Origin: Sphaerobacter thermophilus DSM 20745
Lineage (GTDB): Bacteria > Chloroflexota > Chloroflexia > Thermomicrobiales > Thermomicrobiaceae
Assembly: GCF_000024985.1 (NCBI RefSeq)
Contig: NC_013524.1
Location: 868,001-932,000, forward strand
Direction: 5' to 3'
DNA length: 64,000 nucleotides
Notes under the pieces: generated by a model
Told to the model about the DNA's origin: nothing
What the model saw: only the letters and a program-made list of their open reading frames with translations
The model's database searches: none
Position numbers and translations under genes: made by a program
Shown here: positions 6,852-40,139 of the stretch, one piece after another
Numbering within the stretch: the first letter of the stretch is position 1
Layout: every line of letters starts with the position of its first letter

Positions 6852-6955
6852 GCCCCTTACCCCCGACCCCTCTCCCACAAGGGGAGAGGGGAGTGTCTCT
6901 TCGTCTCATTCCCCCTCTCCCAACTTTGGGAGAGGGGGGTAGGGGGTGAGGGCCG
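6852..6955. repeat. Dispersed CCCTCTCCC palindromic repeat, copy A
   Basis: Two palindromes in tandem: CCCCTCTCCC-ACAA-GGGGAGAGGGG and CCCCTCTCCCAACTTTGGGAGAGGGG, with ACCCCCGACC at the left and GTAGGGGGTGAGGGC at the right. Matching copies lie near 9911, 20636, 33111 and 38838. It lies between convergent genes (FAH hydrolase and pyrD). Confidence 0.85.
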
Positions 6956-37569: not shown

Positions 37570-37597
37570 TTGCCATGATGGGCTCGAGGTGTAGAAT
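37570..37597 (+). promoter_or_regulatory. Promoter of the proC leader
   Basis: TTGCCA (37570-37575), 16 bases, TAGAAT (37592-37597). It is back to back with the transporter promoter; the two -35 boxes are 35 bases apart. Confidence 0.6.
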
Positions 37598-37659
37598 AGC
37601 GAGCACACGGGCGACTGTTCGACGCGCTCGCGGCAAGCCGCGGGTTGCTGGAGGACGCG

Positions 37660-37827
37660 ATGCTGTACTCATCCGACCTCGCTGACCACCACACCCTGTG
37701 CTACGACCGCGCACGTCTGCCCGGCGCGCCGGCATCCCCTGCCCGCGCGCTGTCCGCCCCTAGCCCGATCCCTGCCCCGGACCCTACCGGCGGCCCTCAA
37801 CCCGCTTCCCTCGGAGATCTTTGCTGA
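37660..37827 (+). CDS. Proline-rich putative leader peptide of proC
   Basis: This 55-aa reading frame begins with ATG five bases after CTGGAGG and lies 60 bases downstream of a promoter. The second half is packed with proline: ten Pro codons within 29 codons (LPGAPASPARALSAPSPIPA then PDPTGGPQPAS). Five of the ten are CCT, although this GC-rich genome mostly uses CCG and CCC. The next gene is proC, which makes proline. A hairpin that resembles a terminator begins 26 bases after the stop codon, and ACCCGCTT inside the reading frame can compete for the hairpin. The layout is that of an attenuation leader. It may instead be a chance GC-rich frame; no homology is recognised. Confidence 0.5.
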   Translation: MLYSSDLADHHTLCYDRARLPGAPASPARALSAPSPIPAPDPTGGPQPASLGDLC

Positions 37828-37853
37828 GTCGATCGTCACGGTTTCCGAGTGGG

Positions 37854-37875
37854 GCGGGTGCCGACGGGCACCCGC
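37854..37875 (+). terminator. Terminator-like hairpin between the leader frame and proC
   Basis: GCGGGTGCC pairs perfectly with GGCACCCGC around a 4-base loop, followed by TTAGCGTTTG, a weak T-tract. GCGGGT (37854-37859) can alternatively pair with ACCCGC at 37800-37805 inside the leader frame. Confidence 0.55.
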
Positions 37876-37928
37876 TTAGCGTTTGAGGGCCAGAAACCTA
37901 CCCACGCACAACCGGTAGCTCAATAGCG

Positions 37929-37948
37929 GCGCCGCACGCGTGCGGCGC
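37929..37948 (+). promoter_or_regulatory. 20-bp perfect palindrome just before the proC ribosome site
   Basis: GCGCCGCACGCGTGCGGCGC is fully self-complementary and ends four bases before GGAGGAG of proC. It could be a regulator site or an RNA hairpin shaping translation start. Confidence 0.45.
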
Positions 37949-37966
37949 ACGATGGAGGAGCCAGCA

Positions 37967-38830
37967 ATGGAGGGTACGGTGCAGGACATCCTGCGCGACG
38001 CACGGATCGCATTCATCGGCTGCGGTGTGATGGCGGAGGCCATCATGGCGGTCTTGCTGCGCGGGGAGCTGGTCCACCCGCGGCAGATCACCGGCGGCGA
38101 GCCGATCCCATCCCGCCGCGAGGAACTCGCCGCGCGCTACGGGGTTCGCATCGTCAGCGACAACCGGGAAGCGGCCGCCGAGGCCGACCTTGTCATGCTC
38201 AGTATCAAGCCGCAGACGCTCGACGTGGTCATGCAGGAGCTCGCCGGTACGCTGCGGCCGGAACAGGTCGTGGTTTCGATCATCCCCGGCGCCACGATCG
38301 CCCACCTCAGCCAAGGGCTTGGGCACGCCGCAGTCGTGCGCTCGATGCCGAACACCCCGGCGCAGATCGGCAGCGGGGTCACCGCCTGGTACCCGGCACC
38401 GGCCGTCGATGAGCGGATTCAGGCGCTGGTCGAGGCTGTGCTCAGCGCCATGGGCCTGTCGGTGCGCGTCGACTCTGAGGACCAGATCGACATGGCGACG
38501 GCGCTGAGCGGCACCGGGCCAGCCTACGTCTTTCAAATGATGGAAGCACTGATCGATGCCGGGGTCCACCTCGGGCTGCACCGGCGCATCGCGGAGCAAC
38601 TCGTCTACCAGACGATGCTCGGCTCGGTGCTCTTCGCTCGCGAGTCGGGCAAGCACCCGGCCGAACTCCGCAACATGGTGACGACGCCGGGCGGCACGAC
38701 CGCGGCCGCGCACTACCAGATGGAGAAGGGCGGGTTGCGCACCGTCATCGCCCAGGCTGTCTGGGCGGCCTACAAGCGCGCAGAAGCCCTCGGCGCCGGT
38801 CGCAAGAACGGCGGCCCGGAGTTGCTGTAG
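37967..38830 (+). CDS. proC: Pyrroline-5-carboxylate reductase
   Basis: This 287-aa NAD(P)H enzyme makes proline from pyrroline-5-carboxylate, the last step of the pathway. The dinucleotide site is RIAFIGCGVMAEAIMAVLL near residue 12. The signature of the family is seen as SMPNTPAQIGSGVTAW and, in the C-terminal dimerisation domain, ALSGTGPAYVFQMMEALIDAGVHLGL and VTTPGGTTAAAHYQMEKGGLR. ATG at 37967 has GGAGGAG six bases before. It is preceded by a proline-rich leader frame and hairpin that may attenuate transcription. Confidence 0.95.
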   Translation: MEGTVQDILRDARIAFIGCGVMAEAIMAVLLRGELVHPRQITGGEPIPSRREELAARYGVRIVSDNREAAAEADLVMLSIKPQTLDVVMQELAGTLRPEQVVVSIIPGATIAHLSQGLGHAAVVRSMPNTPAQIGSGVTAWYPAPAVDERIQALVEAVLSAMGLSVRVDSEDQIDMATALSGTGPAYVFQMMEALIDAGVHLGLHRRIAEQLVYQTMLGSVLFARESGKHPAELRNMVTTPGGTTAAAHYQMEKGGLRTVIAQAVWAAYKRAEALGAGRKNGGPELL

Positions 38831-38837
38831 GTGATCC

Positions 38838-38897
38838 GGCCCTCATCCCCGGCCCCTCTCCCAATGTTGGGAGAGGGGGGCAGGGGGTGAGGGCCAT
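38838..38897. repeat. Dispersed CCCTCTCCC palindromic repeat, copy E
   Basis: GGCCCTCATCCCCGGCCCCT followed by CTCCCAATGTTGGGAGAGGGG and CAGGGGGTGAGGGCC; lies between convergent proC and reductase genes. Confidence 0.85.
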
Positions 38898-38900
38898 CCT

Positions 38901-40139
38901 CTACCCCGCCGCGAACTGCCGCGACAGGGCCCGGAGGTCGGTGTCGGGGTTGGCCAGCACGGCCGGGTCGACGGCGGCGCCGGCCGCGACGAGGCGGCGG
39001 GCAGAACGGTGCTCCTTCGGCCGGTTGAGCATCGCGGCCGCCACGATGCGCCCCTCGGCGAGATAGAAGGCCGTCACGCTGAAGGCCGCGGCGTCACCCC
39101 GCAGCACCACCTGATCCCAGGGGACGGGGTAGCCGTAGTATTGGAGCGTCGTGTCGTACTGATCGGTCCAGAAGGAAGGTACCGGCGCGTAGGGCTCGGG
39201 TTGCCCGGCCATGGCCCGGCCTGCCGCCGCGCCCTGCTCCCCGGCGTTGTCGAAGTGTTCCACCCGGATCCGACGACCCAGTGCCGGATGCCACCAGGTG
39301 GCCACGTCGCCCGCGGCGTACACCCCGGGCGCGCTGGTAGCGCAGTGCTCGTCGACCAGGATGCCGTCGTCGACCGCCAGCCCGGCCGCAGTGGCCAGAT
39401 CGACCGCCGGCCGCACCCCCACGCCGAGCACGACCAGGTCGCAGTCGAGCCGTGTGCCGTCGTCGAGCACCGCCTCCTCGACCCGATCCCGGCCGCGCAG
39501 TTGAGCCACGCCCCGGCCCATCCGCAGATCCACTCCATGGGCACGGTGCAGGTCGGCATACACTGCCGCCAGCTCGGGCCCGAGGACGCGGCTCATCGGT
39601 GCAGGCAGCAGATCGAGCAGTATCACCTCTCGGCCGAGTGCGCGGGCGCTGGCGGCGACCTCGCTCCCGATGAACCCGGCGCCGATCACCAGAACCCGCT
39701 CGGCCTGTAGCAGGCCGGCCCGGAGGGCCTCGGCGTCGGCCAGCGAGCGCAGCACATGCACCCCCGGCAGGTCGATCCCCGGCAGTCGGGGGCGGATCGG
39801 GTTGGCTCCGGTTGTGATCAGCAGCCGGTCATACGACACCGATTCGCCGGAGTCGAGCACGACCCTGCGCGCGGCCGGGTCGAACGCCACGGCCGCGCGA
39901 CCCAGCAGGAGGTCGATCTCCCGCTCGCGGTAGAACTCCTCCGGCTGGAAGACGATCGCCTGGGGTTCCTTCGTACCCTGGAGGATGCCCTTGGAGAGCG
40001 CTGGGCGGTCGTAGGGCCGCACCGGCTCGGCGCCGATCAAGAGCACCTGCCCGTCGAAGCCGGCCTGGCGCAGTGCGTCGGCGGCGAAGTGGCCGGCAAC
40101 CCCGGCCCCGAGGAGGACGTACACAGGCCGGCGTGACAT
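38901..40139 (-). CDS. FAD-dependent NAD(P)H:ferredoxin reductase-like protein
   Basis: This 412-aa flavoprotein passes electrons between NAD(P)H and an Fe-S carrier. Two dinucleotide-binding folds are visible: FAD at the N-terminus (YVLLGAGVAGHFAADALRQAGF) and NAD(P)H near residue 150 (RVLVIGAGFIGSEVAASARALG). The FAD-closing motif is PGVYAAGDVATW. A reductase C-terminal domain follows (about 320-412). The start lies three bases after the stop of a Rieske ferredoxin gene, its probable redox partner, as in the electron-transfer arm of ring-hydroxylating dioxygenases. No oxygenase subunit is encoded nearby. Confidence 0.92.
   Translation of the reverse strand: MSRRPVYVLLGAGVAGHFAADALRQAGFDGQVLLIGAEPVRPYDRPALSKGILQGTKEPQAIVFQPEEFYREREIDLLLGRAAVAFDPAARRVVLDSGESVSYDRLLITTGANPIRPRLPGIDLPGVHVLRSLADAEALRAGLLQAERVLVIGAGFIGSEVAASARALGREVILLDLLPAPMSRVLGPELAAVYADLHRAHGVDLRMGRGVAQLRGRDRVEEAVLDDGTRLDCDLVVLGVGVRPAVDLATAAGLAVDDGILVDEHCATSAPGVYAAGDVATWWHPALGRRIRVEHFDNAGEQGAAAGRAMAGQPEPYAPVPSFWTDQYDTTLQYYGYPVPWDQVVLRGDAAAFSVTAFYLAEGRIVAAAMLNRPKEHRSARRLVAAGAAVDPAVLANPDTDLRALSRQFAAG

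Follow-up and report, generated by a model that had tools for sequence, protein, structure and literature searches.

A Conserved Proline-Codon Leader Upstream of proC in Five Related Bacterial Genera as a Candidate Ribosome-Mediated Attenuator

Introduction

The attenuators of the trp, his, leu, and ilv operons combine a promoter, a short open reading frame (ORF) with an abundance of codons for the end product, a rare control codon, competing hairpins, and a downstream gene of the same pathway. In Bacillus, the genes for proline biosynthesis are preceded by T-boxes that sense the charging of tRNA-Pro. The Salmonella leaders mgtL (upstream of mgtA) and mgtP (upstream of mgtCBR) are ORFs with proline codons in which ribosome stalling at low levels of Pro-tRNA raises downstream transcription, and no obvious intrinsic terminator is associated with either of them (PMC3641672). 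Leader peptides and the LEU element have been described in actinobacteria for Trp, Cys, Leu, and Ilv cases; proline is never mentioned (PMC1262725).

The leader of proC described here shares with the trp, his, leu, and ilv attenuators each of the elements named above. It differs from them in its end product and target gene (proline and proC), in an additional long-range helix (P1) that closes the entire element, in an antiterminator segment located inside the ORF, with most of its stem (P2) shared with the terminated fold, and in a T-tract that is weak or absent in most genera. Like mgtL and mgtP, it contains a proline-codon ORF and lacks an obvious intrinsic terminator in some genera, whereas the Salmonella leaders control Mg2+ transport and virulence genes rather than proline synthesis and occur in other bacteria with a different peptide and a different fold. 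The actinobacterial leaders resemble it in their GC-rich hosts and regulatory codons, and some of them likewise have no obvious terminator.

Apart from the Salmonella Mg2+ leaders, no attenuator of proC or of proline biosynthesis was found in the open-access literature; subscription journals were mostly outside the search, and priority is uncertain. An earlier note on this DNA knew of no such control for proC or in this phylum, and no report of leader-peptide control of proC or in the Chloroflexota was found in the literature searched.

Organization of the proC Leader

The DNA analyzed here (the window, 64 kb) comprises positions 868001-932000 of contig C2 in a genome of 3,993,764 bases and two contigs. 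All features of the leader are located on the plus strand of the window. A single site was returned by the promoter search, compared with 0.0 expected from shuffled sequences. It is a sigma-70-type promoter (37570-37597) with the -35 hexamer TTGCCA at 37570-37575, a 16-nt spacer, and the -10 hexamer TAGAAT at 37592-37597. The sequence GTGTAGAATAGCG of this region is also present in leader L005 from the same genus (g1), and a TAxAAT-like box was seen by eye at a comparable position in most of the other leaders. The Shine-Dalgarno sequence GGAGG at 37650-37654, identical in L005, is followed by an ATG at 37660 that opens a frame of 55 codons plus stop (MLYSSDLADHHTLCYDRARLPGAPASPARALSAPSPIPAPDPTGGPQPASLGDLC, 37660-37827). 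The gene for pyrroline-5-carboxylate reductase, proC, occupies 37967-38827 and matches P5CR_dimer at 5e-38. The segment ACCCGCTT, which occurs three times in the 64 kb, is found within the ORF at 37800-37807 and again at 37870-37877. A gene for an extracellular solute-binding protein lies on the opposite strand upstream of the leader. The promoter, the strong ribosome site, the proline-rich frame of 55 codons, the hairpin, the repeated arm, and proC had all been reported in the earlier note, and each was located where it had been placed.

The leader ORF contains ten proline codons, five of which are CCT, a codon that was correctly described beforehand as rare elsewhere. Proline richness alone is weak evidence in such GC-rich DNA: of the 217 chance ORFs with a length of 40-70 codons in six frames, 29 carry at least ten proline codons. 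Within 41 genes of the window, CCT accounts for 39 of 1065 proline codons (3.7%), against half of those in the leader ORF, and from this low share a P of ~1e-5 is obtained for five CCT codons among ten. None of the 15385 segments of 29 codons in the window genes contains at least ten proline codons or at least five CCT codons. The argument that the element is real is based on its conservation in relatives, which, as judged by sequence comparison, settles the reality of the observation.

Conservation in Related Genomes

A search for proC covered 21 genomes of the family and 61 of the order, and the DNA upstream of the gene was read. Fully comparable leaders were obtained from 12 species-level genomes in five genera, the genome of the window included. 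These are L003 (the leader of the window) and L005 from genus g1, L017 from g2, L018-L022 from g3, L007, L008, and L010 from g4, and L009 from g6. The sequence of L004, also from g1, begins within the leader, but P3 is retained, as is the P1 3' arm.

One reading frame is open in all 12 leaders, with its start 30-41 codons before and its stop 11-16 codons after a CCT codon that is invariant across the five genera; in the two remaining frames, neither openness nor a start is consistent among the leaders. This CCT, located at 37783-37785 in the window, is the candidate control codon and is always followed directly by an A. The peptide surrounding it conforms to P-x-P-[TSN] in every leader, reading PAPDPTGGPQPASLGD in the window and, for example, PITPAPTGGPRLASPG, PPPSPVPTGGPRVASSG, SPDPNGRPSAPA, APDPTRRPP, and LPDPSCGSW in relatives. 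Few proline codons are found in the frames of g2 and g6, and the g4 leaders do not have a clear Shine-Dalgarno sequence. As expected of an attenuator, 12 of 12 leaders thus carry an ORF that is conserved in frame and contains codons for proline, the end product. By these alignments, the proC leader is a genuine, conserved element, and its presence in 12 species of five genera makes it very likely that the arrangement functions as a switch, one that would increase proline synthesis when proline becomes scarce. The earlier note had proposed that the frame, the proline codons, and the competing arms be checked for conservation. The check was run on these leaders and was passed, and a proline-codon leader on proC is therefore well supported.

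In genus g5 the leader is absent from the six genomes in which proC was found, and another gene directly precedes proC. The leader was not seen by eye upstream of proC at 29 further loci in other families of the order. When 158 genomes of the class were searched with a covariance model built on the g1/g3 form, every match was a proC leader of g1 or g3; a wider spread of leaders of the g2, g4, and g6 types is possible, since the model misses those divergent forms. In family f3 (L023-L026), several proline codons are found at the end of the gene preceding proC, where a tail resembling PEPAGAATGDG is encoded, and a CCGGTAGGAGCGGC-like segment comes next. The sequence of this tail is unrelated to that of the g1-g6 proC leader.

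RNA Helices of the Leader

When the leaders were folded singly, the same plan was obtained in g1, g2, and g3; the best fold of L005 alone is without P1. P1 is a long-range helix formed between codons shortly after the invariant CCT and a segment beyond P3. In the window its 5' arm (segment 2a, GGCCCTCAA) lies at 37792-37800 and its 3' arm (segment 5, TTGAGGGCC) at 37883-37891, and it encloses both P2 and P3. P2 is formed by pairing of the last codons of the ORF (37808-37818) with the bases at 37841-37853, immediately 5' of the P3 hairpin. P3 is the terminator-like hairpin reported in the earlier note; its arms are located at 37854-37862 (GCGGGTGCC) and 37867-37875 (GGCACCCGC), and it is followed by the weak T-tract TTAGCGTT. 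A candidate antiterminator, P2*, extends P2 by pairing of ACCCGC at 37800-37805 with GCGGGT at 37854-37859 and competes with P3.

No helix other than P1 is shared by all five genera, and the 5' arm of P1 starts 4-9 nt after the CCT in all 12 leaders. In g4 and g6, P1 is lengthened into a long rod, and P3 and the T-tract are absent. Shuffled downstream sequences pair with the 5' arm of P1 at least as well as the native sequence in 7 of 1000 trials for L018 (g3), 6 for L007 (g4), 1 for L009 (g6), 42 for L017 (g2), and 228 for the window. The pairing thus beats the shuffles at ~0.001-0.04 in four genera and at 0.23 in the window, where P1 taken singly is not better than shuffled sequence.

Covariation was evaluated with an alignment of the seven g1 and g3 leaders. 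For P1, P2, and P3 together, 93.4% of the cells are paired, and at most 51% when the arms are slid. Changes on both sides occur at 8 pairs and in 16 cells, against 4.4 and 5.5 in the shuffles, counts that are not probabilities because the aligned leaders are few and related. Both-side changes are found at 5 of the 12 pairs of P2. All cells of P3 (100% for its 5' arm) are paired, and this helix is invariant or compensated across g1 and g3. For P2*, 90.5% of the cells are paired (at most 50% when slid), with a covariation of 0.397 against 0.239 for shuffled sequences; five or six of the six pairs of its extension are kept in seven of seven leaders, and the extension varies mostly by changes between C-G and U-G. 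The predicted helices P1, P2, P3, and P2* are thus supported by pairing-preserving changes.

Mutually exclusive helices with pairing-preserving change are found in g1 and g3 as P2* and P3 and are absent in that form from g4 and g6. The terminator/antiterminator pair of two arms proposed in the earlier note stands insofar as the competition of P2* with P3 is kept in g1 and g3. It is incomplete in other respects: P1, the best-kept helix, and the ORF-tail pairing P2 were overlooked; P3 can coexist with the greater part of the antiterminator stem (P2), and competition is confined to the extension of 5-6 bp; and g4 and g6 are without P3.

Proposed Mechanism

The best explanation of the leader, to which a probability of about 0.75 is assigned, is a ribosome-mediated attenuator through which the expression of proC would respond to charged tRNA-Pro and thus to proline limitation. 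At low levels of Pro-tRNA, the ribosome would stall in the proline run of the leader ORF, most likely at the rare CCT. A ribosome at this codon would cover ~15 nt downstream, which is the 5' arm of P1, and leave the sequence from 37800 onward free. The free segment could then extend P2 into P2* and sequester the 5' arm of P3, and proC would be transcribed. With ample proline, the ribosome would reach the stop codon and cover most of the stem of the P2* segment, and P3, and later P1, would form. Formation of P3 would shut down proC, most simply by termination of transcription at P3. The leader anatomy, its conservation, and the pairing-preserving changes are read from the sequences themselves; we infer that the leader is translated, that the ribosome stalls, in which direction proC responds, and how the OFF step is achieved.

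Folding energies were computed with the ribosome placed at each codon, and the Escherichia coli trp leader was used as the control. In each of the eight leaders that have P3, blocking this hairpin costs less with the ribosome at the CCT than at the stop codon, and the same direction is obtained for the trp leader. P3 is the preferred equilibrium fold at most ribosome positions, equally so in the trp control, and the switch would therefore have to be kinetic. Because the control behaves alike, the equilibrium test does not discriminate; the energy cost alone differs, in the expected direction.

The OFF Step and Alternative Explanations

The 8 nt following P3 contain 3-4 T in the genus of the window, which agrees with the weak T-tract reported in the earlier note. 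The range is 3-5 for g1 and g3 overall, and the count is 6 in g2, where the P3 hairpin is followed by T5 at the same place. The T-box terminators of the window's genome have 4-7 T in the corresponding 8 nt. A hairpin with a U-tract is thus good in g2, weak in g1 and g3, and absent from g4 and g6, and on these T counts intrinsic termination is likely in g2, possible in g1 and g3, and unlikely in g4 and g6. Intrinsic termination at P3 is a plausible OFF step for the proC leader, most clearly in g2. Rho or another step may serve this purpose in g4 and g6, where P1 alone remains. P1 closes beyond the terminator, and the simple attenuation model assigns it no clear task; it might serve as an additional barrier in the OFF state or be of importance to Rho.

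These observations bear on a variant of the preferred explanation in which the same proline-codon sensor operates and the P1 rod controls the OFF step, as Rho-dependent termination or as RNA processing in place of intrinsic termination. P1 as the sole helix of all five genera, the loss of P3 and the T-tract in g4 and g6, and the weak T-tract of g1 and g3 point toward it. So does the C-rich composition of the 60 nt of ORF leading up to the CCT (22-34 C versus 9-18 G), and the Salmonella mgtA and mgtCBR proline-codon leaders without intrinsic terminators provide a precedent (PMC3641672). The well-positioned T5 tract of g2 and the invariant or compensated P3 of g1 and g3 argue against this variant, which is regarded as a serious possibility, though short of an even chance. 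Somewhat more tentatively, the proline-sensing switch might be P1 itself, covered by a ribosome stalled at the invariant CCT and operating, in two or more genera, with no classical intrinsic terminator; it would then be a ribosome-gated fold distinct from a terminator/antiterminator pair. The retention of P1 where the terminator was lost raises the question of how stalled ribosomes gate genes without intrinsic terminators.

Other explanations depart further from proline-codon attenuation. Translational control, in which the leader fold hides or exposes the ribosome site of proC, is unlikely: candidate hairpins lie over or just 5' of the proC Shine-Dalgarno sequence in g1 and g4, whereas the computed openness of this site does not change consistently among the free, stalled-at-CCT, and at-stop states of the 12 leaders. 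It is similarly doubtful that P-x-P-[TSN] arrests the ribosome as a nascent-peptide or EF-P sensor, independent of the charging of tRNA-Pro. The motif is kept in 12 of 12 leaders even though g2 and g6 have few proline codons, but x and the remainder of the peptide vary and the controlled gene makes proline; the invariance of the CCT codon itself implicates the codon rather than the peptide. A T-box riboswitch for tRNA-Pro would be in keeping with the eleven T-box matches in the genome and with the invariant A after the CCT. The proline codons, however, sit within an open, conserved frame, and the Rfam T-box model (RF00230) did not match the leader at thresholds up to E 10 despite the eleven matches elsewhere, which makes this reading highly improbable. 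The proline T-boxes of Bacillus, by comparison, bind tRNA directly without translation. No Rfam family reached its gathering score in the window, and hits in the leader are at the level of chance (E at least 2.6). A fortuitous ORF with hairpins in GC-rich intergenic DNA has hardly any probability left: proline-rich short frames are common here (29 of 217), and chance is contradicted by the conservation and the pairing-preserving changes across genera.

Proline Pathway and T-Boxes

Both proB and proA went undetected in the 21 genomes of the family, as did proB in the 61 genomes of the order, while 12 of 14 control genomes gave a score. Since proB and proA were not found in the family, proC is apparently the sole gene that it dedicates to proline and a natural control point. 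Ornithine aminotransferase was considered as a possible source of pyrroline-5-carboxylate: each of the 21 genomes encodes class III aminotransferases, but none of these scored above the curated cut-off.

The T-boxes of the genome precede leuA, leuS, trpE, ileS, trpS, thrS, and homoserine O-acetyltransferase-like genes, which were named by eye from the protein sequence, and none of the genes behind them was recognized by eye as a proline gene. If the proposed attenuator is correct, it would be the first case in the literature searched in which a leader peptide controls proC or proline biosynthesis, and a leader-peptide attenuator of the Chloroflexota in a genome that otherwise uses T-boxes for the genes of Leu, Trp, Ile, Thr, and Met. 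Such an attenuator would also illustrate how a lineage without detected proB and proA could control proline synthesis at the remaining dedicated enzyme. Within the window, a T-box match of 69.8 bits (Rfam cut-off 93) was located on the minus strand at 1531-1813, upstream of a tryptophanyl-tRNA synthetase-like gene.

Repeats Flanking proC

A perfect inverted repeat, GCGCCGCACGCGTGCGGCGC, is present at 37929-37948, immediately 5' of the proC Shine-Dalgarno sequence, and similar hairpins are found in L004 and L005. Directly after proC, at 38835-38905, there is a palindromic repeat, CTCTCCCAANNTTGGGAGAG, together with its flanks, which also occurs near 6915, 9971, and 33128. These four sites in the window compare with 0.13 expected matches, and 96 matching stretches were counted genome-wide on both strands. 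From its sequence and distribution, this repeat is a REP-like dispersed element.
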